From the NCBI RefSeq assembly GCF_019052805.1, contig NZ_JAHQRJ010000002.1, positions 1-64,000 of the forward strand: a DNA stretch of 64,000 nucleotides, given 5' to 3'. Below are positions 21,131-35,750 of the stretch, piece by piece; positions within the stretch are counted from its first letter, which is position 1, and every line of letters starts with the position of its first letter. The DNA is from Noviherbaspirillum sp. L7-7A. Lineage in GTDB: Bacteria > Pseudomonadota > Gammaproteobacteria > Burkholderiales > Burkholderiaceae_D. Position numbers and translations under genes: made by a program. Under the pieces are notes generated by a model. That model had not been told where the DNA came from, did no database searches, and saw only the letters and a list, made by a program, of their open reading frames with translations.

Positions 21131-21159
21131 CGGTCATGCAATTGTCATCCCGTGGTCAT
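21131..21159 (+). promoter_or_regulatory. Pho box upstream of the first PhoX gene
   Basis: Three heptamers, CGGTCAT (21131-21137), TTGTCAT (21142-21148) and TGGTCAT (21153-21159), each separated by exactly four bases, giving the 11-base period of PhoB binding sites (consensus CTGTCAT). The PhoX start codon lies 106 bases downstream. Confidence 0.7.
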
Positions 21160-21265
21160 GCTGATGAAGCATGCAGTGATTAATCTTGCGCAAGTTCATC
21201 GCGGCCGGCACCCGCCGGACCGCGTGCGAAGCATCAATCCCATGCTCATTAACAGGAGGAACACC

Positions 21266-22786
21266 ATGACCGACAAGAACATTTCCGACAAGCGCCGCAA
21301 CCTGATCAAGGGCCTGGCTGGCGCCTCCGCGCTGCCCTTCATCGGCGCCTTCGGTGCGCTGCAGGGAAGGCAAGCTCAGGCCGCCGACGGCGTCACCGCC
21401 CTAGTGGAAAGCCCCTATGGCCCGATCGCGCCCGCCAATGACATGGCCACCGGCCTGCCGCTGCTGCAGCTGCCGCCCGGCTTCACCTATAAGAGCTATG
21501 GCTGGCGCGGCGACCTGATGAGCAATGGCCAGCCCTGCCCGGGGGGCCATGACGGCATGGGCGTGATCGCCTCCAGCAGCAGCGGCAACCGAGTGGAGGT
21601 CGTGCTGGTGCGCAATCATGAAATCGGCTTTGTCGCGCCGGAAAACGTGATCAATGCGCCTGCCGTCTATGACCGCGGCACCAACAGCGGCCTTGTCAAC
21701 AAGCCTGGCGGCGGCACCACCAATCTCGCTTTCCGCGATGGCAAATGGGTTGGCATGACGCCCAGCCTGGGCGGCACACAGGGCAACTGCGCCGGCGGCG
21801 TAACGCCCTGGGGCACCTGGCTGACCTGTGAGGAAGTCAGCTCGGACGCCACCAGCAGCGCCGGCAACATGCACGGCTACGTGTTCGAAGTGCGTGCCGA
21901 CCCATCGTCCACCTCGGCCCGGCCCATCGTCGGCATGGGCCGCTTCGGCCACGAGGCGGCGGCGGTTGATCCGGCCACCAGCATCGTCTACATGACCGAA
22001 GACAGCTCCGGCAAATCCGGTTTCTACCGCTACGTGCCGCAGGTGACGCCCGGCGCGCCCGGCACGCTGGCGCAGGGCGGCACGCTGCAGATGGCCAGGG
22101 TCAAGGGCATGCCCAACGCCAACCTGGCCACGGTGTCGGTAGACCAGCAGTACGAACTGGAATGGGTGACCATCGCCAACCCGGACCAGGCGCGCGGCAA
22201 TGTAACCGGCCTGAACGGCCAGGTGATCACCAATGCGGCCGGCCCGTTCGTGCAGGGCTGGGCGCAGGGCGCGGCGCGCATGAATCGCGGCGAAGGCATG
22301 TGGTACTTCCAGGGCAGGATCTATGTGATGGACACCAGCGGCGGTTCGGCCTCGCGCGGCACGGTATGGGAGCTCGACCTGACGCGCCAGCGCATCACCT
22401 GCATCTACAACAGCCCCGGCGCGCTGGTGGGCAACATGGGCGACAACCTGACCGTTAGCCCTGGCGGCGGCCTGCTGCTGTGCGAGGACGGTGGCGCGGA
22501 AACCGGCGACCGCTTCGGTATCGGCCAGCGCCTGATGGGCCTAACCGAAGCGGGCGATGCGTATATTTTCGCCAAGAACAACGTCAACCTGACGGCAGAG
22601 CAGGTGGCGGCGGCTGGCAAGGCCGCCAGCGCGGCCGGCGACAACCGCACCCGTGAATTCTGTGGCGCCTGTTTCGATCCGACCGGCCGATTCCTGTTCG
22701 TCAATATCCAGACGCCCGGCATCACCTTCGCCATTACCGGCCCGTGGGCCAAGGGGCCGCTGCATTCCCGCGGCAACGGCGCGTAA
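21266..22786 (+). CDS. PhoX-family phosphatase (DUF839), Tat-exported
   Basis: Secreted phosphomonoesterase-type beta-propeller, 506 residues. The N-terminus has a twin-arginine signal (DKRRNLIKGLAGASALPFIG) with cleavage near QAQAA. The PhoX metal-site segments are visible: GHDGMGV, NHE, NCAGGVTPWGTWLTCEE (the Cys that holds iron in PhoX), and GRFGHEAAAVDP. AGGAGG precedes ATG 21266. A well-formed Pho box upstream indicates induction by phosphate starvation. A terminator follows at 22936. A second, larger PhoX-family gene lies 2 kb downstream on the other strand, also with a Pho box. Confidence 0.9.
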   Translation: MTDKNISDKRRNLIKGLAGASALPFIGAFGALQGRQAQAADGVTALVESPYGPIAPANDMATGLPLLQLPPGFTYKSYGWRGDLMSNGQPCPGGHDGMGVIASSSSGNRVEVVLVRNHEIGFVAPENVINAPAVYDRGTNSGLVNKPGGGTTNLAFRDGKWVGMTPSLGGTQGNCAGGVTPWGTWLTCEEVSSDATSSAGNMHGYVFEVRADPSSTSARPIVGMGRFGHEAAAVDPATSIVYMTEDSSGKSGFYRYVPQVTPGAPGTLAQGGTLQMARVKGMPNANLATVSVDQQYELEWVTIANPDQARGNVTGLNGQVITNAAGPFVQGWAQGAARMNRGEGMWYFQGRIYVMDTSGGSASRGTVWELDLTRQRITCIYNSPGALVGNMGDNLTVSPGGGLLLCEDGGAETGDRFGIGQRLMGLTEAGDAYIFAKNNVNLTAEQVAAAGKAASAAGDNRTREFCGACFDPTGRFLFVNIQTPGITFAITGPWAKGPLHSRGNGA

Positions 22787-24839: not shown

Positions 24840-26825
24840 TTATGCCTTCGTCATGCGGATCGCGCTGACGTCGGCAGTGAGGTAGCCGACCGCGGCGCCG
24901 AAGGCGTTCCTGTAGTTCGCCTTGATCAGCGGATCGAGCGTGGACTTCACGGCGCCGTGGATCGGCAGCCAGTCGCCGGCATGCTGGAAATTGCTCATGA
25001 TGTAGGTCCAGCCATTGATCTCATCCACCGCATGCAGGCCTGTGGACTCGCCGCCGGACGGGATCGACATAATGCGCGCAAGCTGTCTGGTGTCGACGTT
25101 GTAGGCCCACAGGAAGTTGTTGACGTGCTGGCTGCTGTCCTCGCCGATGAAGAGGGTGCGCAGCTTTTCCGAGAACTTCAGGTTGTCGGGATTGGCCACC
25201 TTGTCCGGATTGGCGGTGTTGCCCAATGCATCGGCGGGAATGTCCTGGCCCGCCAGCAGCGCTTTCAGGTCGACCGGCATCCATTCGCTGTTGATGGCCG
25301 CGCCCGAGGTGTCCTTCACGCCGCCCTTCAGGTTCAGCGCCATCACGGCGCCGGCTACCAGCTGGCTCGGGATCGACACGCCGTTGCCCGGCACGTTGAG
25401 CGCATTGCCAGCCACCATCGAACTCTGGCAGTTCTGCAGCGCCGAATAAGCGACCTTGTCGCGGGTGTTGACCGTGGTGCCTTCCATCTTGGTGAAGCCC
25501 ATTGACGCGCCCACCAGCGAAGCATAGCGATGGGTTTCCAAGAAGGCGGCAGCCTTCTCCATGCCTGGCATGAGCTTGATCCACTCGGTGCGGCCGTTGG
25601 CGGCCACTTTGGTATAAGTGGCGTCGGCAGGATCGGCGGTCTTGACATCCATGATGTCGGTTGGCCGCAGCGTGGTGGCTAGGCGCTGGATCTCGGCGCT
25701 GCTGGCCGAGCCGAGCCTGATCCAGGTCAGCAGCGCGCCGCTGCCGTTGGGGTCGAGCGAGAAGCCGGCGCCGACCTTGGCCACGTACAGCGTGCCGGAA
25801 GATAGGTCTTTTTCCCGGTCGGCCACGAAGACGAAGTAGCCGCTGTTAGTGGCATCGTCGCCCATCATAACGGTGCGGTTGTCCGGCATTACCTGCACCA
25901 GTTCATGCGAGATGCGGCCCAGGCAATAATGTTTTTTGATCGACGCCGTGCCATCGGGGTTGACCGTGACTTCGGGCAGGTGGCCGTAGTTGTAGGAATT
26001 GGCCACGGTTTCGCTGCCATACAGGTTCTTGCTGAAGGCACGGAACTGGGCGTCGGTCGCAGCGCTGAAGGCATTCGGCTCGTATTCCTCGCTGGACAGA
26101 TGGGTGCCCCATGGCGACAGACTGGCGCCGCAGGTGATCCACAGTCCGTTGACGGACGAGGTATCGACATTGTGATACTTCACCAGCGCCAGCTTGCCAG
26201 TGGCCGGGTCCTGATCCAGCGTCAGTACCGCGATCGGCGACGGCAGCTTGCCGTACATATTGGTCACGCCGTCCTGCGCCAGGCTGGTGTATTCGAACTG
26301 CACCACGGCGAACACTGTATTGCCCTTGACGCCATTGACTTTGGCATTCGGCACAGTCAGCAGCGAGGTGCCGTCGGGCGAATCGGAAAAGAACTGGCGC
26401 GGGCTGGCCGGCAGGCTGCTGTCGATGATGGGCTGGTTGTAGATGTCGACATAGCCGCCGGCGAGGATGGTGCCGCCATTGCCGTCGGGGACGCGGTCGC
26501 CGGTGATAAAGAAGGGCTGGTAGGCCAGCTTGTAGTCGACCTTGCTGGCGTCGCTGTAATTGACGGTCATGGTCGAGCCCACGGTGGTCGTGGCCATCGC
26601 CGCCGGCGTGCTCAGGTTGGGCGCCGGCATCGAGCTGAAGCTGGCCGAGGCGAACGTAGCCGTGGTTTTCGGCGCTTCCACTGCTGCGGCGGCGACATTG
26701 TCGGAGCCACCGCCGCCGCATCCGGTCAGCAGCGAGGAGGCAAGCGCGGGACCGAGCGGAAACAGCGGCGAGCTGGCGAGGAATTTGAGTGCCTGGCGGC
26801 GGGAAAGCGGGGACTTGGTCGTCAT
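24840..26825 (-). CDS. PhoX-family phosphatase (DUF839), Tat lipoprotein-like
   Basis: Protein of 661 residues, the longer PhoX type. The N-terminus combines a twin-arginine motif (SRRQALKFLASSPLFPLG) with a lipobox-like LLTGCGGGG, so it is probably Tat-exported and lipidated. Family segments include WITCGASLSPWGTHLSSEEY, GRISHELVQVMPDNRTVMMG and SAEIQRLATTLRPTD. The iron-binding Cys of PhoX appears in ITCGAS. Start chosen at ATG 26825; a TTG at 26834 would add three residues. A Pho box with matching -10 lies upstream (26920-26953). Convergent with the GGDEF gene 149 bases away. Confidence 0.88.
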   Translation of the reverse strand: MTTKSPLSRRQALKFLASSPLFPLGPALASSLLTGCGGGGSDNVAAAAVEAPKTTATFASASFSSMPAPNLSTPAAMATTTVGSTMTVNYSDASKVDYKLAYQPFFITGDRVPDGNGGTILAGGYVDIYNQPIIDSSLPASPRQFFSDSPDGTSLLTVPNAKVNGVKGNTVFAVVQFEYTSLAQDGVTNMYGKLPSPIAVLTLDQDPATGKLALVKYHNVDTSSVNGLWITCGASLSPWGTHLSSEEYEPNAFSAATDAQFRAFSKNLYGSETVANSYNYGHLPEVTVNPDGTASIKKHYCLGRISHELVQVMPDNRTVMMGDDATNSGYFVFVADREKDLSSGTLYVAKVGAGFSLDPNGSGALLTWIRLGSASSAEIQRLATTLRPTDIMDVKTADPADATYTKVAANGRTEWIKLMPGMEKAAAFLETHRYASLVGASMGFTKMEGTTVNTRDKVAYSALQNCQSSMVAGNALNVPGNGVSIPSQLVAGAVMALNLKGGVKDTSGAAINSEWMPVDLKALLAGQDIPADALGNTANPDKVANPDNLKFSEKLRTLFIGEDSSQHVNNFLWAYNVDTRQLARIMSIPSGGESTGLHAVDEINGWTYIMSNFQHAGDWLPIHGAVKSTLDPLIKANYRNAFGAAVGYLTADVSAIRMTKA

Positions 26826-26919
26826 CTTTTTCAATGTGCAGTGGGAACGGGTTGCCCTGCTTCGGCTAGCATCGCGACCTTTGCATCCATCATGGCCGCG
26901 CAGCGTTCAGGGTGAGTGG

Positions 26920-26976: not shown

Positions 26977-27756
26977 TCAGGCGTGACCGGTGCCGGCGTC
27001 GTCGTGCCTTGGCTGCAGGGCGTCGCGCAGCGAGCTGATCACAGCCTCGCGCAAGGCACGCCAGGACGGGCCTAATGCCGCATGGCGCTGGTTGATCTCC
27101 AACTCAATGCCGAGATAGTCAGTCCCCGTGAAACGGCGCCGCAGATAGGTGGTGAAGCCGTCGGCGGTGCCGGCATAGGGATAGTTCATGCGCACCTTCA
27201 GTCCCGGCGCATGCCGGCCGAGCGCAAGCCGCCATTCGCGGCACAGCGCGCGCTCGCCGCCGCGGCGCGGGTCGTAGAGCAGGCCAATGTCGGCATCGCG
27301 TACGGCGCCATCAAGCTCCGGCGTAAAGCTGTGGGACGACAGGTGCACCACGCGCAGGCCGCTGGCGATCGTTGCGCCGATGCGGGTTTCCACCGCGTCG
27401 CGGTAGGGCAGGTAATACCGCTCGAGCAGCTCGCGGCGCAGTTCGGCGCCGGCATCTCTGGTGAACTCTGAATACAGGCGAGCATGCCGCGGCGACCGGT
27501 TCAGCTCGATCAGCAGACGGCTGACGGTGCAGGCATGCAGCGGCGCAGCCAGCGCGGCCGCCAAGTCGCGCGCCATGCGCAGTGCGCCGGGATCATAGCC
27601 ACGATGGCTGCGCAGGACCTGGCCGTGGCCGGCAAACAGGCGACGGTAGGCGGCGGGAATGCGGTTGCCACCATGCTCGCAACTAATCAGGAAGCCGTCG
27701 TCCTTGGTCACATTGACGGCCCCGTCGCGGCGGCCGGCCGTGTGCAATGCCGGCAT
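26977..27756 (-). CDS. N-formylglutamate amidohydrolase family protein
   Basis: Zinc hydrolase of 259 residues, fourth gene of the amidoligase operon. The family signature near the N-terminus is LISCEHGGNRIPAAYRRLF, followed by HRGYDPGALRMARDLA and, further on, VHLSSHSFTPELDGAVRDAD, LLYDPRRGGERALCREW, and MNYPYAGTADGFTTYLRR. Textbook members (HutG) release formate from N-formylglutamate in histidine breakdown, but there is no hut gene here. Placement with two glutamate-type ligases suggests it cleaves an acyl- or peptidyl-glutamate made by them. GAGG precedes ATG; six bases separate it from the upstream gene. Confidence 0.88.
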   Translation of the reverse strand: MPALHTAGRRDGAVNVTKDDGFLISCEHGGNRIPAAYRRLFAGHGQVLRSHRGYDPGALRMARDLAAALAAPLHACTVSRLLIELNRSPRHARLYSEFTRDAGAELRRELLERYYLPYRDAVETRIGATIASGLRVVHLSSHSFTPELDGAVRDADIGLLYDPRRGGERALCREWRLALGRHAPGLKVRMNYPYAGTADGFTTYLRRRFTGTDYLGIELEINQRHAALGPSWRALREAVISSLRDALQPRHDDAGTGHA

Positions 27757-27762
27757 TGCGCC

Positions 27763-28977
27763 TCATGGCAGGAAGGCATGGCCCTGCTCCAGGCAATCGC
27801 ACAGCCGGCGGCAGGCATGCGCAAGGCCCTTGCGTGCGTATGCATCCCGCAGTCGCCGTGCCAGCGTGCCATGCCGCAGGATGGTCTCCAGCGGCGGCGT
27901 CCACCAGGCATCTTGCTGGCTGGCCATCATAGGCTGCAGCAGGGCGCGCCAGACGTCGGCTGCAGGCAGGCGCGCCTCGGTAAAGCCAAGCAGCTTCAGG
28001 TAGCGGGCGTTGTCGATGATGGCTGCATCGCCATCGCGGATGCAGTCGGTCAGCACGCCGGCCAGCGCTTCGGTGGCGATCTCCTGCTGCGCATCCAGGT
28101 CGCCACCGTCATACAGGCGGCGCGTTACATCAACCACGGCGGCGGCCACGGCAAGGTCTGCGCCAGGATGTTCTTGTGTATCGATCACGCGAATCTCTAT
28201 GGCGTCGCGGTCGAAACGGGCGATGGCGCCGCGTGAATTGAGCCATTCATAACGCAGCACATGGTCCGGGTCCAGCACAGCGATATCGTCATACATGGGC
28301 TGCAGGATGCGGGCCTCGTAATCGGCCTGGCTGCGCGCGGTTTCCGGTACTACCAGGCCGGCAATGGATGGCATGCGGTCGGCATTGTGGGTGTAGACAT
28401 GCATGCGGTAATCTGCGTAGCCGGTATCGCGTCCGTCGGCGAAGGGCGAACTAGCAGCTAGTGCGGGGATCAGCGGCAGCACCAGCCTGATCGCTGCATG
28501 CAGTCGGGCGAACTCGTCGTCGCCGGCGAACGGCAGGTTCACATGCATGCTCTGCAGGTTGGACCAGCCATGGCCGCGGCTATCGAAGATGCGGTCGTAG
28601 GCCGCGTAGATTTCCTGGTTCTGATGCGGCCACAGCCGGGTTTCGCGGTCCGGGTCCATCCATGGATGCATCGCGCCCGGCATCAGCCGCGCGCCCATGC
28701 CGGCAAGGAGGCTATTGATCTGGTCAAGCTCGCCACGGAAGGCGGCCGGCAGGCCGTCGAGCGACGCCGCGGGCGCCAGGTTCTTGACCTCCACTACATG
28801 CATCACGAGCTCATTGGACCAGCCCATCCCGCCATGCGTGACCTCATAGTCCTCGCTGCCGGGCGCCGCCGCCAGCAGCCTGTCGGCAATGGGTAGCACG
28901 TTCAGGGTCTCGCGATCGACAATCATGTATTCCAGCTCGATGCCGACCCCGCCAAAGGCATGCAGCGGCGCGCTCAT
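27763..28977 (-). CDS. GCS2-type glutamate-amine/cysteine ligase (COG2170-like)
   Basis: Ligase of 404 residues from the glutamine-synthetase-fold family that joins glutamate to an amine using ATP. The N-terminus GVGIELEYMIVDRETLNVLP matches the ATP/metal motif (the E-x-E pair), and later AMHPWMDPDRETRLWPHQNQ, QSMHVNLPFAGDDEFARLHA and IEIRVIDTQEHPGADLAVAA are family blocks. ATG 28977 overlaps the stop of the RimK-like gene by four bases (ATGA), so the two are translationally coupled. The open frame upstream to 29301 is the shadow of the RimK-like gene. It is unlikely to make ordinary gamma-glutamylcysteine, given its operon partners. Confidence 0.9.
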   Translation of the reverse strand: MSAPLHAFGGVGIELEYMIVDRETLNVLPIADRLLAAAPGSEDYEVTHGGMGWSNELVMHVVEVKNLAPAASLDGLPAAFRGELDQINSLLAGMGARLMPGAMHPWMDPDRETRLWPHQNQEIYAAYDRIFDSRGHGWSNLQSMHVNLPFAGDDEFARLHAAIRLVLPLIPALAASSPFADGRDTGYADYRMHVYTHNADRMPSIAGLVVPETARSQADYEARILQPMYDDIAVLDPDHVLRYEWLNSRGAIARFDRDAIEIRVIDTQEHPGADLAVAAAVVDVTRRLYDGGDLDAQQEIATEALAGVLTDCIRDGDAAIIDNARYLKLLGFTEARLPAADVWRALLQPMMASQQDAWWTPPLETILRHGTLARRLRDAYARKGLAHACRRLCDCLEQGHAFLP

Positions 28978-30443
28978 GATTTGAGTCCCCGCAACGCCTC
29001 GATGCGCTTGTTGAACACGCCCATCACCTCCCGGTACAGCGCATCGCCAAGCACGCCGTCCTCGTTGCCGGCATCCACATTCGGATTGTCGTTGATCTCG
29101 ATGATGTAACACTGGCCATCCACTTCCTTCAGGTCGACGCCGTAGAAGCCGTCGCCGATCAGGCCGGCCGCGCGCACCGCGATGTCGATCACCTCGTTGG
29201 GCACCTCGCCGATCGACAGTGCCTCGGTCTTGCCTTCGCTGGTCTGCGCGCTGTCGTGACGGATGATCTGCCAGTGCCCCGGCGCCATGTAGTACTTGCA
29301 CACGAACAGCGGCCGGTTGTCCAGCACAGCGATGCGCCAGTCGAATTCCGTTGGCAGATACTGCTGGGCCAGTACCAGTTCCGAATGGCGCAGCAGCTCG
29401 CGCACCTTGGCCATCAGTTCCTCCTCGGTGTGGACCTTGGCCACGCCCAGCGAGAAAGCGCCGTCCGGCTGCTTGAGGATGCAGGGCAAGCCCAGCGTCG
29501 GGATGATGCGGTCGATATTGTCGGGATGGACCACCAGCGTTCTGGGTATCGGAATGTGGTGACGGGTCAGCAACTCGGCGAGGTATATCTTGTTGGTACA
29601 GCGCAGGATGGCATCCGGATCGTCGATCACCACCAGCCCGGCGGCCGCCGCCAGCCGCGAGAGGTGGTAGGTGTAATGGTTGACATTGGTGGTGTCGCGG
29701 ATGAACAGCGCATCGAACTCGGCTAGGCGGCCGGCGTCGCGCCGCGTGATCAGGCTGGGCTTCATGCCCAGCATGGTGGCGGCCTCGCAGAACTTGTGCA
29801 GCGCCTGCGGATTGGAAGGCGCTTCCTCGCGCTGCGGGTCATGCAGGATGGCGATCAGCGGCGCTTCGCTGGCCGGCCGCGTGCTGCGTATTCTCTGCTG
29901 CTGCATGTAGGCCAGCACCGACTGGCAGAACACTGCCCGCTCGGCCTCGGGAATCTCGCCCGGCTCGCCGGCGCGTATGGTCATCAGCCGCCAGAAGCCG
30001 GCGGTGCGCTTGAAGCGGGCATGCAGGATGGGTGCGGAAAGGGTGCGGAATAATTCCATGCACAGATGCTCGTTGCGGCGGTCGCCGCTGGCATCATGAC
30101 CGAAGTAAATCCGCAGCTCGACCTGGTCCTGTTCCAGCGGCGCGAAGGTGCAGCTGGCAAGGTCGCCAAGCCTGTCCCTAACGGTCTGCAGCAGCTCGCT
30201 CGACTGCAGGTCCTTCAGCGCTTCCACGCCCGGCAGCGGCTGGTGGCCGCGCGCCTCCGCCAGCAGCGACACATAATAGCCATGGCTCTGATAGCGGTAG
30301 TTGCTGCACAGGTTGAACACCCGGGTCGAGGCCGACTCGCCAAAGGCCGGGTCGATCAGGTAGTTGCGGGCGGCGATGGCGGTGATGCCGGGAATATCGA
30401 ATGGCCAGTCTTCCGGCCGGCTTACAACGAACAATATCTTCAT
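28974..30443 (-). CDS. RimK-like ATP-grasp ligase with N-terminal domain
   Basis: Protein of 489 residues. The N-terminal part (1-200; starts KILFVVSRPEDWPFDIPGIT) is a family-specific extension; the C-terminal part (about 205-480) is an ATP-grasp fold: pre-ATP-grasp segment ALHKFCEAATMLGMKPSLIT, substrate segment LFIRDTTNVNHYTYHLSRLA, ATP lysines around PCILKQPDGAFSLGVAKV, and the metal-binding GVDLKEVDGQCYIIEINDNP. RimK itself adds glutamate to ribosomal protein S6; this longer form belongs to a group found with GCS2 and C39-like genes. It overlaps both neighbours by four bases (ATGA). Confidence 0.92.
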   Translation of the reverse strand: MKILFVVSRPEDWPFDIPGITAIAARNYLIDPAFGESASTRVFNLCSNYRYQSHGYYVSLLAEARGHQPLPGVEALKDLQSSELLQTVRDRLGDLASCTFAPLEQDQVELRIYFGHDASGDRRNEHLCMELFRTLSAPILHARFKRTAGFWRLMTIRAGEPGEIPEAERAVFCQSVLAYMQQQRIRSTRPASEAPLIAILHDPQREEAPSNPQALHKFCEAATMLGMKPSLITRRDAGRLAEFDALFIRDTTNVNHYTYHLSRLAAAAGLVVIDDPDAILRCTNKIYLAELLTRHHIPIPRTLVVHPDNIDRIIPTLGLPCILKQPDGAFSLGVAKVHTEEELMAKVRELLRHSELVLAQQYLPTEFDWRIAVLDNRPLFVCKYYMAPGHWQIIRHDSAQTSEGKTEALSIGEVPNEVIDIAVRAAGLIGDGFYGVDLKEVDGQCYIIEINDNPNVDAGNEDGVLGDALYREVMGVFNKRIEALRGLKS

Positions 30444-31285
30444 CGGGTATCCCGCTGCCTGGCATCCCGTGGTCTGATCACCAGCAGATTGGCGTCATGT
30501 GTGACGATGCCCAGCAGCACCGCGCCCAGCACCCGGTCCATGCCCAGCCAGTATTGGTGCGCGCCGGCGAACGGGTTGGGCTGATAGGGGTCTTCCACCA
30601 AAACTTTGCGCCGTTCGCGCTCGTAACCGGCCAGCACCACGAAATGGCCGGAGGGCAAGCCACGGATATCGTCCGGCGTGTCGTCGGTGCCGTATTCCCG
30701 CATGGCGCGGTAGAGGTAGGTGGAACTCAAGCCAGTGAGCAGCGGAAAGCCGCGCCGCAGCAGGCCCTGCACCAGACCGCGCGTCAAGTCCTTCATGCGC
30801 AACTGGCCGCCCAGCCGGAGAAATTCCAGATAGCCTTCGGTCGCATGGCGCAGCCGGTAGTCTGCCTTCACTTCCCGCTGCATGCGCAGCCGCTCGGCGA
30901 TATTGATGCCGGCCTGGCTGAACCAGCTGGGGTCGAACACGTTCAGGTTATAGGTATAGATCGTGGCGTCATAGCCGCGGCGCAGGGCATCGCAGGCCAG
31001 CAGCACGGCAAAGGTGCCGCCCTGCGCCAGCTTACCGGTACGCTCAATCAGGTTGCCCAATGGCTCGTCGTCTCCCCAGTAGCGGTAGATCGCATGCAGG
31101 CAGGTAGGGCCACAGGTCGTTTCGTCCGGCTGGGGAAGGATGCTGACAGGAAGCTCGATGCGATTGGTAAGCACGGTGGCGGGCAGTCGATAGCGGCATT
31201 GCCAGTCAGATTTGCCATGGCGACAAAAGTTTCGGCCCAACGGTATTTGGCGAGCCAGCAATTCGAATTCGGTCAATCGCTGCAC
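30440..31285 (-). CDS. C39-like cysteine peptidase, first gene of the amidoligase operon
   Basis: Protein of up to 281 residues with the papain-like C39 triad: the nucleophile in QPDETTCGPTCLHAIYRYWG (Cys near 58), the His in LPSGHFVVLAGYERE and the Asp in VLVEDPY. C39 enzymes cleave double-glycine leaders, but no ABC exporter is fused here. The start is uncertain: GTG 31285 lies only 38 bases from the upstream terminator and has no ribosome site; GTG 31174, giving 244 residues and beginning just before the catalytic domain, would leave room for a promoter. Stop overlaps the RimK-like ATG by four bases. Confidence 0.82.
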   Translation of the reverse strand: MQRLTEFELLARQIPLGRNFCRHGKSDWQCRYRLPATVLTNRIELPVSILPQPDETTCGPTCLHAIYRYWGDDEPLGNLIERTGKLAQGGTFAVLLACDALRRGYDATIYTYNLNVFDPSWFSQAGINIAERLRMQREVKADYRLRHATEGYLEFLRLGGQLRMKDLTRGLVQGLLRRGFPLLTGLSSTYLYRAMREYGTDDTPDDIRGLPSGHFVVLAGYERERRKVLVEDPYQPNPFAGAHQYWLGMDRVLGAVLLGIVTHDANLLVIRPRDARQRDTR

Positions 31286-31318: not shown

Positions 31319-31342
31319 AAAAAAGCCGGGCGAACCCGGCTT
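31319..31342 (-). terminator. Intrinsic terminator of the Ala/Lys-rich protein gene
   Basis: Perfect eight-base stem AAGCCGGG / CCCGGCTT (31323-31330, 31335-31342) with loop CGAA; on the minus strand it is followed by a run of T (A-run at 31319-31324). Isolates the upstream gene from the amidoligase operon. Confidence 0.85.
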
Positions 31343-31359: not shown

Positions 31360-31713
31360 TTACTTCGTGGTCGTGGCATTGACCTTGGTTTCCTTGCTGT
31401 CTTTCTTCGCTTCGGCTACCTTCTTGTCCGCCTTGGCATGCGCATCTGCCTTGGACTTCTCGGCCTTGGCATCTGCCTTGTTCACGGCTTCCTTCTCATC
31501 GGCCTTCGCCTTGGCGATTTTCTCACCGGCCTTGGCATCAGCTTTCTCGGACTTCGCCTCGGCATTGACAGCTGCCTTGGTGGCGGGGGCTGTGGTGGTG
31601 GTTGTAGTGGTTGCAGGTGCGACTGGCGTTGTCGTGGTTGTCGTTGCAGGTGCCTGTGCGAAGGCGGCGCTGGCGAACAAGGTAGCAACGGACATGGCGA
31701 TCAGATTTTTCAT
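31360..31713 (-). CDS. Ala/Lys-rich exported hypothetical protein
   Basis: Protein of 117 residues. The signal peptide (MKNLIAMSVATLFASAAFAQ) is clear. The mature part has a Thr-rich stretch (TTTTTTPVAPATTTTTTTAP) and then an Ala/Lys/Asp/Glu repeat of about 65 residues (for example ADAKAGEKIAKAKADEKEAV) predicted to be a long charged helix. Similar proteins are common in Burkholderiales and are uncharacterised. Start at ATG 31713 preceded by GAGGGC. Own terminator. Confidence 0.8.
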   Translation of the reverse strand: MKNLIAMSVATLFASAAFAQAPATTTTTTPVAPATTTTTTTAPATKAAVNAEAKSEKADAKAGEKIAKAKADEKEAVNKADAKAEKSKADAHAKADKKVAEAKKDSKETKVNATTTK

Positions 31714-31865
31714 AAAGCCCTCATCAAGTGGTTGAGCAGTTTGCCTGCCCCTCACTAACGGGACCTGATGACAGCTAGTTGACCATTAAGATGTAAGCGT
31801 TGGTTACGGTTGTAAGCGCGCATGACAAGGTGCATAGTTAGCCATGCCAATCAAGGGAGATATCG

Positions 31866-32357
31866 ATGAACATGATGGATGCGGGCACCTTGCCCGATAT
31901 CGAGCTGCGCGTTGCCGTTGAGGACGACGCCGCATTGCTGGCCGCGCTGCAGGCTGAGATGGACGACGGCGACCCGGCCGCCACGACCGATGCCGACCAT
32001 GCCGCGATGCGCGCCGTACTGGCGGACATGGCTGCCTATCCGCACTTTCGGGCCTATATCGTCTACAAGGACAACCAGCCAGTGGCCAGTTTTTCGTTGA
32101 TGATCTTTGCCTCGCCTTCGCAGGGCGGGCAGCTTCAGGCTTTGCTGGATGCGGTGGTGGTAAGCCGCGCGCAGCGCGGGCGTGGCATCGGTGAGGTGAT
32201 GGTGCGGGAAGCGCTTTTTATGGCCAGGCAGGCCGGCTGCTACAAGCTGATCCTGTCATCCAATCTGAAACGGCGCGATGCACATCGCTTCTATGAGCAG
32301 CTTGGGTTTCGGCAGCATGGGATCAGTTATGGCATGCCGTTGAAGGGGCATGATTAG
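31866..32357 (+). CDS. GNAT family N-acetyltransferase
   Basis: Protein of 163 residues with the acetyl-CoA binding motif A (VVVSRAQRGRGIGEVMVREA; the RGRGIG pyrophosphate loop) and the C-terminal motif B (RRDAHRFYEQLGFRQHGISY). Substrate unknown; the closest general type is the PhnO/aminoglycoside-like small-molecule acetylases. GGGAGA precedes the ATG. Stands alone, followed by a repeat-bearing intergenic region. Confidence 0.9.
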   Translation: MNMMDAGTLPDIELRVAVEDDAALLAALQAEMDDGDPAATTDADHAAMRAVLADMAAYPHFRAYIVYKDNQPVASFSLMIFASPSQGGQLQALLDAVVVSRAQRGRGIGEVMVREALFMARQAGCYKLILSSNLKRRDAHRFYEQLGFRQHGISYGMPLKGHD

Positions 32358-32870: not shown

Positions 32871-35750
32871 TCAAGCCGCCTGGCCAGCCAGCGCCATCAG
32901 GTCCACCACTTCCAAACCCGCCAGGTCCTGTGCCGCATTCCCGGCGAACGCGGCACGGCTGGGCTGCGCATTCTGCAGGTACTGCATGGCCACGGCCTTG
33001 AGTTGAAGATCGGTGCATTCGAGCACGCCGTGTCGGAACTGCTCCCGCATCGCCTGGGTAACACCGGCTTCGCGCAGCTGCCATGCCTGCAGCGCTTCAT
33101 GATGCGGGCTGCGCGGCTTGTCGAGTTCGCCGATCACGCCAATGATGGCTTCCTCGATATGCTCGCGCTGCAGCGGCGCTTCCACCACCCAGGCCACCGC
33201 ACGAGCAAAGTCTTCGTAGGTGCCGGCAAGCCGTGGGTCGCGGTAGGACAGCATGGTGAAAACGCCGCTGTGCGCCGCATAGCGCGCGGTGCCGCCATAA
33301 GCGCCACCCTCCTCGCGCAAGGCCTGGTGCAGCACCTGGTTGGTCATCAGGTTAGCCAGCACGGACAGCACTGGCGCATCCTCATGACCCAGGCGCGGCA
33401 CCGCCCAGCTCGCGAAGCAGTGGTTGACCTGCGCCGGCGCCATCAGCGCCACGCTGGCCGGCGCGCCACGCTCGCGTTGCGGCGCGGTGGCTGTGCTGTC
33501 CGGGTCGGCGCCAGGCACATCGATCAGTCGCGCCAGATGCGCGCCGTCTTCCTCCACGCCTGCGCCGATGATGCGCACCGGCGCAGCCAGGACCCGTTGG
33601 TGCAGAGCGGAGAGCCGCTCGCAGATGGCTTGCAAACCATCGTCCGATTCGATCTGGCGCGCCAGGGCGCTGTAGAAGCGCAGCGCGCCGGCGCCGTCGA
33701 CTGCATCCTGGAAGTGGCGCCGCAGGGAATAGGGCAGCTCCGCTGCAATGGCGGCGTACTGGTCACCCTGGTCGGCCAGGTCCTGCAACTGGTTTTCCGC
33801 GATCTGGTCGATCAGGAAGGCGATCCGCTCGCTTTCGTCGAAGCGGGCCTCCCGGATGGAATTCGACAGGAGCTGTGCAATGGCGTCCTGCTCCTCGCGC
33901 ACATTGCGCGAGGAAAAGGACAGATTGACGCGCAGGGCTGGCCCCTCCGCCTTCAGGGATTCCTGTGCATCGAGGTCCACCGAGAACGATGGCGCCAGCT
34001 GCTTGCGCCAGGATGCGGCTTCGGCAAAGTTCATCGCGCCCACGCCGAGATCGGGCAGCAGTTCGGCATACAGGTCCAGCCACGGCCAGTCGGCTTCTTC
34101 AAAGGCCGACACGTCGTATACCACCCGGCCATAACTGATGCCGTTGCTGGCAATGCGCAGGCCCAACAGGCGTCCGGCGTCTTCGGGCAAATCGTGCAGG
34201 GGCCGCGGCAACGGGCTCACGTCTTGTGGACGGATACGCGGCAACAGGTCGTTGTTGACGGGCTGGCGCTGGCGGGCCAGCAGCGCTTCGGCTTCGGCCG
34301 CAATGCGCTGCGCCTCGGTCTCGTCCATTGCGCCAGAGAGCTGCGCAAGGCGTTCCTCCTCGATCGCGTTGCGTGCGTCGAAATAGCGGGCATCCGGCTC
34401 CACCGTCACAGTCAGCCGGGTTGGCGCGGCCAGCAGGTCACGCACCATAGATTTGAAGAACTCCGGATGACGGATTTCCTGCTCCAGCTTCGCTAGAGTG
34501 GCTTCGCTATCGAAGGCTGTCATGATGTCGCCGCCTGCCATTTCGAATGGCAGCGCCTGCAGCAGCTTGCGCATGCCGTAGGGCAGCTGGCCGCCCTGGA
34601 TCTCGCGCTGCGAGAAGCGCAGGTCTCGCAGTGCCGCCTGCAACACCGCATGCGGCACGCCGGTCTGCGTGGTCTTTTCCAGGGTGCGCCATATCAGCGC
34701 GCGCGCTTCTTCAGTCTGTTCACGGGTCAGGCCTTCCATGCCGAGATGGAATACCAGCTGGCGATGGCTCGGGTCCATCCCATTGAAGGCAGACGGCCTG
34801 CCATAGCCAGCCGTTTCCATCGCATGCAACAGCGGCGCCGAAGCGTCGCCCACTAGGCCGGCTTCCAGCAGCTGCGCCCGGTAATACGCCACGGGGTCAG
34901 CCGATTCGCCGGCCAGCCAGGCCAGCTGCATGCCGTACTCGTCGTCGCGCGCGGTGGGCGATGGGATGCGGATGGTGGTACTGCGCGGCGCCTCCCATTG
35001 CGGCGCCAATTCCGGCATCATGCGCGGCGCCTGGCCTGAGAGCTTGTCCAGCACATGCTCGGCAATGACCCGCTGCACCGCGGCCGGATCGACTGCGCCA
35101 GCTGTCATGAACACCGCCTGCGATGGATGGTAGTGGCTGGCGTGGAACTGCTTCAGGTCGTCGTGGGTGAGCGACGGAATCGCCAGCGGGTCGCCGCCCG
35201 ACTCGACGGCATAGGTGGTGCCGGCAAACAGGATCGCGTCCATGCCCTGGGCCAATGCCCGCATCGGGTCGGCAAATGCGCCCTTCATCTCATTAAACAC
35301 CACGCCGCCATAACCCAGCTTGCCGTTCTCCAGCGTGTGGCGCCAGCCTTCCTGCAGGAAGTCCAGGTATTCCAGCTGCGGGAAGAACGCCGCGTCCAGG
35401 TAGACGCCCAGCAGGTTAAAAAAGTCGGCTTCGCTGGTGCTGGCGAACGGGTACACGGTGCGGTCGGGATAGGTCATCGCATTCATGTAGGTCGCGGTCG
35501 AACGGCGCAGCATCGAGAAGAACGGGTCGCGCACCGGGTAGCGGCGCGAGCCGCACAGCGCCAAGTGCTCCAGGATATGCGCGCGGCCGTCGTCCTTGTC
35601 GGGCACGGTGGGAAAGGCCACCAGGAAAACCATTTCGGGATCGTCGGTTGCCAGATGAATGTGGCGGGCGCCACTGGCGGGATGTTCGTATTCTTTCAAT
35701 ACTGCCTGCATGACCTTGACGGGCCGGACACGCTTTTCAATGAAGGTCAT
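32871..35750 (-). CDS. M16C metallopeptidase (PreP/Cym1-like)
   Basis: Zinc protease of 959 residues, the usual size of the presequence-protease group. The inverted zinc motif HILEH (residues 58-62) is present in DDGRAHILEHLALCG, followed by PFFSMLRRSTATYMNAMTYP, the substrate-binding region. The C-terminal halves show FASWAVPRLGHEDAPVLSVL and LREEGGAYGGTARYAAHSGV, the R/Y pair of M16 C-domains. Expected to degrade peptides in the cytoplasm. No signal peptide. Single gene; AT-rich promoter region on its 5' side. Confidence 0.93.
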   Translation of the reverse strand: MTFIEKRVRPVKVMQAVLKEYEHPASGARHIHLATDDPEMVFLVAFPTVPDKDDGRAHILEHLALCGSRRYPVRDPFFSMLRRSTATYMNAMTYPDRTVYPFASTSEADFFNLLGVYLDAAFFPQLEYLDFLQEGWRHTLENGKLGYGGVVFNEMKGAFADPMRALAQGMDAILFAGTTYAVESGGDPLAIPSLTHDDLKQFHASHYHPSQAVFMTAGAVDPAAVQRVIAEHVLDKLSGQAPRMMPELAPQWEAPRSTTIRIPSPTARDDEYGMQLAWLAGESADPVAYYRAQLLEAGLVGDASAPLLHAMETAGYGRPSAFNGMDPSHRQLVFHLGMEGLTREQTEEARALIWRTLEKTTQTGVPHAVLQAALRDLRFSQREIQGGQLPYGMRKLLQALPFEMAGGDIMTAFDSEATLAKLEQEIRHPEFFKSMVRDLLAAPTRLTVTVEPDARYFDARNAIEEERLAQLSGAMDETEAQRIAAEAEALLARQRQPVNNDLLPRIRPQDVSPLPRPLHDLPEDAGRLLGLRIASNGISYGRVVYDVSAFEEADWPWLDLYAELLPDLGVGAMNFAEAASWRKQLAPSFSVDLDAQESLKAEGPALRVNLSFSSRNVREEQDAIAQLLSNSIREARFDESERIAFLIDQIAENQLQDLADQGDQYAAIAAELPYSLRRHFQDAVDGAGALRFYSALARQIESDDGLQAICERLSALHQRVLAAPVRIIGAGVEEDGAHLARLIDVPGADPDSTATAPQRERGAPASVALMAPAQVNHCFASWAVPRLGHEDAPVLSVLANLMTNQVLHQALREEGGAYGGTARYAAHSGVFTMLSYRDPRLAGTYEDFARAVAWVVEAPLQREHIEEAIIGVIGELDKPRSPHHEALQAWQLREAGVTQAMREQFRHGVLECTDLQLKAVAMQYLQNAQPSRAAFAGNAAQDLAGLEVVDLMALAGQAA

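Follow-up and report, generated by a model that had tools for sequence, protein, structure and literature searches.

Ligases in which an RLAN domain (PF14401) precedes a RimK-like ATP-grasp domain are the closest described relatives of the system considered here. Their gene neighbourhoods were reportedly covered in the amidoligase survey of Iyer et al. (2009), and their neighbours are said, both there and in the RLAN entry of Pfam, to include GNAT, papain-like and GCS2 proteins. GNAT and GCS2 proteins both acylate amines, the former with an acetyl-type and the latter with a gamma-glutamyl group. We analysed a 64,000-nt stretch of Noviherbaspirillum sp. L7-7A (contig NZ_JAHQRJ010000002.1, assembly GCF_019052805.1, host genome of 5.2 Mb), hereafter called the window, which carries an RLAN ligase gene in an operon with genes for a C39-like papain-fold protein (C39), a GCS2-family ligase and an N-formylglutamate amidohydrolase-family protein (FGase). 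A preliminary description of this DNA had listed four minus-strand genes joined by two 4-base overlaps and one 6-base junction, and all of these are present (Table 1): ATGA overlaps of four bases join C39 to RLAN and RLAN to GCS2, and six bases separate GCS2 from FGase. No paper about the four-gene operon was recognized by title or abstract start among the matches listed.

Conservation of the gene set and exchange of its partners

A search with the window's own RLAN ligase, and hence biased to GCS2, yielded 53 loci, and gene order was counted in the 44 that extend at least 1000 nt upstream and at least 2500 nt downstream of the RLAN gene. The exact order C39-RLAN-GCS2-FGase was found in 33 of the 44, and the order RLAN-GCS2-FGase-C39 in one (L038, Parachlamydiales); among the remainder, five lacked FGase, one lacked C39, two had only RLAN-GCS2 and two had RLAN alone. 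Since 33 of 44 loci keep the exact order, the four-gene set is a real unit and did not come together by chance, which supports the view of the preliminary description that the four genes are one functional unit, and this unit is widely conserved. The full set is present in Pseudomonadota, Bacteroidota, Spirochaetota, Planctomycetota, Nitrospirota, Bdellovibrionota and Chlamydiota (phyla as given in database records), as well as in four loci of the phylum of locus L051 (Verrucomicrobia) and in one myxobacterium, about nine phyla in total. Many of these loci are from metagenome bins; the isolates include Azoarcus, Aromatoleum, Geofilum and Alkaliflexus. Looser arrangements also occur: in the Paraliomyxa genome that carries locus L047, a second locus (L146) has three consecutive genes, C39, RLAN and FGase, and a GCS2 gene roughly 2 kb away, and in the genome of L039 the C39 gene is absent from the locus and present on another contig.

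The distribution of the ligase is patchy. Of 200 genomes searched in the order to which the window belongs, 10 gave an RLAN protein, the host genome among them, and the five other genomes of the same family gave none. In the short stretches read around RLAN in the nine other genomes of the order that carry it, seven have C39 and GCS2, one has C39 only (at a contig end) and one has neither. At the phylum level, 72 of 398 genomes sampled from the window's phylum had RLAN proteins; the corresponding figures were 37 of 288 for the phylum of L051 and 35 of 296 for that of locus L045, each count including a centre genome known beforehand to carry RLAN.

The partners of the ligase were tallied in 162 loci, namely the 53 loci from the ligase search, 39 of 75 places in the window's phylum, one locus from its order, 35 of 38 places in the phylum of L051 and 34 of 35 in that of L045. 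The four places omitted from the last two phyla are L051 and L045 themselves, which were in the tally already, and two partial frames. Most loci were read over 7 to 17 kb, and some, at contig ends, over less. By Pfam, ten RLAN neighbours comprised seven fusions of GNAT with DUF3335 (described as 'Peptidase_C39 like') and three GNAT proteins alone. A hidden Markov model (HMM) was built from the seven fusions and run, together with its two halves, over all loci, with cut-offs of at least 45 bits for GNAT and at least 100 bits for GCS2. GCS2 was present in 80 loci and GNAT in 69, 13 loci had neither, and none had both. The hydrolases were distributed in the same manner: C39 was found in 73 of 80 GCS2 loci versus 0 of 69 GNAT loci and FGase in 56 of 80 versus 0 of 69, whereas DUF3335 was found in 0 of 80 GCS2 loci versus 34 of 69 GNAT loci. 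Furthermore, GNAT is fused to the RLAN ligase itself in 14 loci (L128, L134 and twelve more), which argues that GNAT and ligase act together. Ten such loci, all from the phylum of L045 (L239, L244, L245, L247, L249 and L251-L255), encode direct GNAT-RLAN-RimK fusions of about 640 to 720 residues, and no GCS2, C39 or DUF3335 match was detected in the 10 kb read around them. Thus the four-gene picture given in the preliminary description holds as a unit, but it missed a larger pattern in which the GCS2/FGase half is exchanged for GNAT in related loci.

Three GNAT genes near GCS2 operons were considered and set aside. A generic GNAT acetyltransferase is encoded divergently from the window's operon (31866-32357, plus strand); it scored 24.3 bits with the fusion HMM, compared with 84.0 for L051 and 46.9 for L060, and was rejected as an RLAN-type GNAT. 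Weak GNATs in the GCS2 loci L012 and L019, scored at 26.2 and 24.2 bits by the GNAT half of the HMM, were treated as unrelated and were not counted; that of L019 lies about 6 kb beyond the operon. At L051 (738-6747), GNAT and RLAN overlap in an operon-like run with argG, a LysA-type decarboxylase gene, dapA and a gene for a CBS protein, and a LysA-type decarboxylase gene likewise lies beside RLAN at L062. The position of the GNAT-RLAN pair of L051, with argG on one side and lysA/dapA-like genes on the other, hints at amino-acid metabolism, although L051 represents one lineage.

Properties of the four proteins

The ligase matched RLAN with 135.7 bits (Pfam cut-off 25) and RimK with 38.7 (cut-off 21), so that it has an RLAN domain ahead of a RimK-like ATP-grasp domain. 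Residues D437, E449 and N451, which we take to be metal residues, are invariant in 50 sequences, and the same residues are aligned in four RimK-family chains. Rows with less than 60% query coverage were excluded from the residue alignments of C39 and RLAN, and the RLAN alignment therefore omits L060, L062 and others. Among named relatives, the nearest is a ligase of Noviherbaspirillum soli, with 95% identity. The window's ligase falls below the NCBIfam cut-offs for rimK_fam (77.5 versus 143.4), the RimK equivalog (32.2 versus 331) and LysX (76.8 versus 275.6).

No GCS2 match besides the operon's own protein was found in the host genome. This protein scored 107.8 bits with PF04107 (cut-off 21), and residues E14, E16, E56, E63, R191, R249 and E261 are invariant in a 30-sequence alignment. 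Under the curated NCBIfam cut-offs no glutamate-cysteine ligase, EgtA or YbdK model accepted it, the best reaching 75.3 versus 371, gshA_cyan_rel 71.6 versus 176.4 and EgtA 23 versus 370.8. Its best matches among PDB sequences were plant glutamate-cysteine ligases (E 3.6e-5), and a profile search of the PDB sequences using the GCS2 alignment returned nothing at E 0.001. The host genome has a separate gshA (650.7 bits, cut-off 293.9) adjoining gshB (426.4, cut-off 299.05) on another contig. Because of this separate pair, and because the scores of the operon protein are far below every glutamate-cysteine ligase cut-off matched, it is unlikely that the operon GCS2 makes ordinary gamma-glutamylcysteine, and ordinary glutathione synthesis was rejected as the function of the operon. 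FGase matched PF05013 (85 bits, cut-off 28.9) and aligns with 2odf (Atu2144) along the EH, H and HSFTP segments; its score with the HutG N-formylglutamate deformylase equivalog was 19.5, below the cut-off of 278.75.

The C39-like protein matched Peptidase_C39_2 (38.9 bits, cut-off 24) and Peptidase_C39 (22.9, cut-off 22) in Pfam and had no match in NCBIfam. The Cys-His-Asp triad named in the preliminary description is seen as C58, H214 and D232, which are invariant in all 44 aligned sequences, and Q52 is conserved in 43 of them; we take these to be the catalytic residues and the oxyanion glutamine, respectively. Homologues start close to an internal GTG at 31174-31172, which casts doubt on 37 codons at the beginning of the longer frame; the true start is probably the GTG at 31174, giving 244 amino acids. 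An hhalign comparison of C39 with DUF3335 (probability 97.3%, E 2.2e-11) aligned the C, H and D columns, indicating that the two are homologous. Because the family motifs are conserved, all four proteins look like working enzymes as judged by sequence, and none was placed by the NCBIfam models of specific enzymes.

The preliminary description had also assigned the C39 protein to the leader-cleaving type, an assignment that was not supported. The C39 leader peptidase of an ABC exporter would be fused to or lie beside the exporter and have a double-glycine precursor as its substrate, but Pfam detected no exporter domain in the C39 protein. A search for a fifth gene (open reading frames of at least 70 codons, in clusters present in at least four loci) gave no consistently placed candidate among the best 26 clusters; those that fell outside the four genes and the frames overlapping them were a response-regulator-like cluster (11 loci, a common domain), a glycosyltransferase-like cluster (six loci) and within-family neighbours. 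Small open reading frames of at least 20 codons were sought within 2 kb on either side of the 53 loci, and no widely shared one was found; the patterns among the best 18 occur in at most six loci, all within related groups.

Proposed pathway and its alternatives

We give an even chance to the proposal that the operon encodes a module that makes and turns over a small, N-capped peptide or amino-acid amide of non-ribosomal origin. GCS2 would link glutamate, through its side-chain carboxylate, to an amine and thereby provide a gamma-glutamyl cap. RLAN-RimK would then add another amide bond to the substrate so capped, in the way that glutathione synthetase follows glutamate-cysteine ligase. The product would be processed or recycled by the C39-like papain-fold enzyme and FGase, the latter acting on the glutamyl part and the former hydrolysing or transferring the peptide part. 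In the related GNAT systems, the gamma-glutamyl group would give way to an acetyl-type cap added by the RimI-like GNAT. That GNAT and GCS2 replace each other beside one ligase, and that GNAT is fused to this ligase, suggests that both make the capped substrate for RLAN-RimK; FGase was seen only with GCS2, as would suit an enzyme cleaving a bond to glutamate. We infer the small size of the substrate, the amines used, the order of the steps, the role of each hydrolase and all substrate assignments. The small peptide or capped amino acid pathway put forward in the preliminary description is thus the best fit, with a GCS2 that is unlikely to be an ordinary gamma-glutamylcysteine maker. In the synthesis of the osmolyte N-acetylglutaminylglutamine (NAGGN), Ngg carries out the acetylation as well as the peptide-bond formation (PMC8070244). 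Glutathione synthesis and NAGGN synthesis may be seen as precedents, by analogy, for the GCS2 form and the GNAT form, respectively.

Several observations weigh against this proposal. Relatives of RimK are protein-modifying enzymes, RimI-like GNATs acetylate the N-termini of proteins, and neither a substrate nor a product of any RLAN enzyme was found in the literature among the matches listed. Eleven of the 162 loci have no partner at all in the stretch read and two have C39 alone (L201 and L032); among these 13, L032 and L062 end at a contig edge, and the genome of L047 has the full set in addition to this locus. When 12 of the 13 genomes were searched whole for GCS2, that of L047 had one elsewhere and 11 had none, so that RLAN can exist without a recognized partner. 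A C39 profile run over the same 12 genomes matched elsewhere in that of L047, only beside RLAN in that of L201, and in none of the other ten. Ten neighbours taken from seven of these loci included no GNAT, GCS2 or C39 protein by Pfam, and three of them had no Pfam match of any kind. FGase is missing from 24 and C39 from 7 of the 80 GCS2 loci, contig-end loci included, and neither hydrolase is therefore clearly indispensable. Finally, the loci are related and the distribution of GNAT and GCS2 amounts to two changes on the trees, so that the argument from exclusivity rests on few evolutionary events, together with the complete separation of the two partners, and not on 149 independent cases.

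As to the history of the exchange, a second GNAT group is nested inside the GCS2 clade in the best tree, and none of 200 bootstrap trees grouped GNAT as one. An approximately unbiased (AU) test does not reject a single GNAT clade in the 71-row tree (p 0.148), nor, in an earlier tree, the placement of L051 with the GNAT group (p 0.138). A repeated origin of the swap is favoured, but it is not claimed, because of these AU results. The tree that gave p 0.138 was made without 12 near-copies and the next one without 13 rows; the 71-row tree left out partnerless rows, three long-branch rows and near relatives. L032, whose contig ends after RLAN and which the 162-locus tally counts as neither, was labelled GCS2 on the trees, as was L037 (partial GCS2) from the p 0.138 tree onward.

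The main rival is protein modification, which we regard as unlikely but which stays live in view of the RimK-like ATP-grasp part and the RimI-like GNAT. Here, C39 would trim a host protein, RLAN-RimK would ligate residues to the exposed carboxylate, as RimK does on S6, and GCS2 and FGase would add and remove glutamyl caps, the GNAT systems doing likewise with acetyl caps. The ATP-grasp part is nearest to RimK and LysX profiles and to RimK structures, RimI was the best GNAT profile in the three GNAT proteins tested (52.6 to 76 bits versus a cut-off of 86.4), and a housekeeping target would need no precursor gene. On the other hand, the GCS2 and FGase families are known for acting on small, free substrates, no consistently linked target gene emerged from the fifth-gene and small-frame searches, and the ligase is below the rimK_fam cut-off given above. 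A glutathione- or phytochelatin-like thiol peptide would be made if GCS2 produced gamma-Glu-Cys or a relative and RLAN added a third residue, with the papain-fold enzyme as a phytochelatin-synthase-like transpeptidase and FGase as a recycling enzyme. The plant pathway uses these same three types of enzyme, GCS2, ATP-grasp and papain-fold, and the resemblance of GCS2 to the plant ligases points the same way. A classification paper (PMC10318531) treats C39, DUF3335 and phytochelatin synthase in one section. However, the phytochelatin synthase profile (PF05023) did not match the C39-like protein up to E 0.1, the host has its own gshA and gshB, the GCS2 protein misses every glutamate-cysteine ligase cut-off that it matched, and no metal or thiol gene was recognizable by eye among the best 26 neighbour clusters; we consider such a peptide quite unlikely, and more so than protein modification.

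A ribosomally synthesized and post-translationally modified peptide (RiPP), from which the C39 peptidase would remove a double-glycine leader and whose core the ligases would decorate, appears very improbable. The C39 profile does match the peptidase domains of bacteriocin exporters (ComA, E 7e-6), but the lack of an exporter domain, of a consistently linked gene past the four and of a small frame common to distant loci within 2 kb (best 18 patterns) led us to drop the leader-peptide idea.

Returning to the capped-product module, a broader and more tentative proposal, which we consider less likely than not, is that RLAN ligases characterize a class of small, capped peptides or amides, widespread but undescribed, whose capping enzyme is interchangeable: a RimI-like GNAT for an acetyl-type cap or GCS2 for a gamma-glutamyl cap. 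The hydrolases would be swapped along with the cap, FGase and stand-alone C39 accompanying GCS2 and DUF3335 accompanying GNAT. If this is true, and given that the best tree has the swap reverting at least once (a point that the AU test leaves unsettled), different phyla would have the remainder of the molecule, and its function, in common. The GNAT/GCS2 swap itself is a concrete clue, as two amine-acylating chemistries occupy the same slot beside one ligase, so that a single ligase step could be assayed on substrates bearing either an acetyl or a gamma-glutamyl group. If this is right, bacteria commonly have a metabolite, or else a protein modification, that has been overlooked so far.

Surroundings of the operon and comparison with known systems

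Table 1. Features of the operon region, in positions of the window.
Feature	Protein	Positions	Strand	Length	Basis
C39-like papain-fold cysteine hydrolase	P0004	30440..31285	-	281 aa (from upstream GTG)	Pfam; invariant C58/H214/D232
RLAN-RimK ATP-grasp amide ligase	P0003	28974..30443	-	489 aa	Pfam; invariant D437/E449/N451
GCS2-family carboxylate-amine ligase	P0001	27763..28977	-	404 aa	Pfam
N-formylglutamate amidohydrolase-family (FGase) protein	P0002	26977..27756	-	259 aa	Pfam; alignment with 2odf
Terminator-like stem-loop and T run, between upstream gene and operon		31323..31342	-		Consensus match only

The four-gene set may start its own transcript, since a terminator-like stem is located just upstream; six such stems were found in the region against 3.1 expected, and no sigma-70-type promoter was found. 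The gene that precedes this stem on the operon strand (31360-31755) encodes a small lysine/alanine-rich protein with a signal-like start, and a Pfam search with its likely coding part (31360-31710) gave no match. Farther upstream is an M16C presequence-protease-like peptidase of 959 residues (32871-35750, minus strand). Downstream, close to each other, are two PhoX-family proteins (21152-22786, plus strand, 249.2 bits; 24840-26834, minus strand, 68.6 bits), the second of which shares the operon strand and lies 142 bases past FGase. PADLOC models of known anti-phage defence systems matched none of the four operon proteins up to E 0.01, and a defence identity was dropped.

Among known systems, RimK and LysX ligases have in common with the RLAN ligase an ATP-grasp core with D, E and N metal residues; unlike them, the RLAN ligase carries an extra N-terminal region with the RLAN domain and scores below both cut-offs. 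Glutathione synthesis by GshA and GshB likewise uses a glutamate ligase and then an ATP-grasp ligase, but the operon differs in that its GCS2 and RLAN proteins are below the cut-offs for the glutathione enzymes and two additional hydrolases are encoded. The NAGGN pathway (asnO-ngg-peptidase, PMC8070244) couples capping with peptide-bond formation on free amino acids and has a peptidase gene alongside, and is comparable to the fused GNAT-RLAN forms; in contrast, the cap enzyme of the operon is GCS2 and no amidotransferase is linked. No NAGGN model was among the NCBIfam matches listed for two of the fused GNAT-RLAN proteins. The known RLAN-RimK neighbourhoods with GNAT-papain fusions (PF14401/PF11814) share with the operon the ligase family and a C39-like papain-fold partner, their C39 and DUF3335 domains being homologous. 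In the operon, however, GCS2, often together with FGase, replaces GNAT, C39 stands alone, and, at the bit-score cut-offs applied, none of the 162 loci mixes the two arrangements; this exclusive exchange of the cap enzyme together with its hydrolases is, to our knowledge, new.

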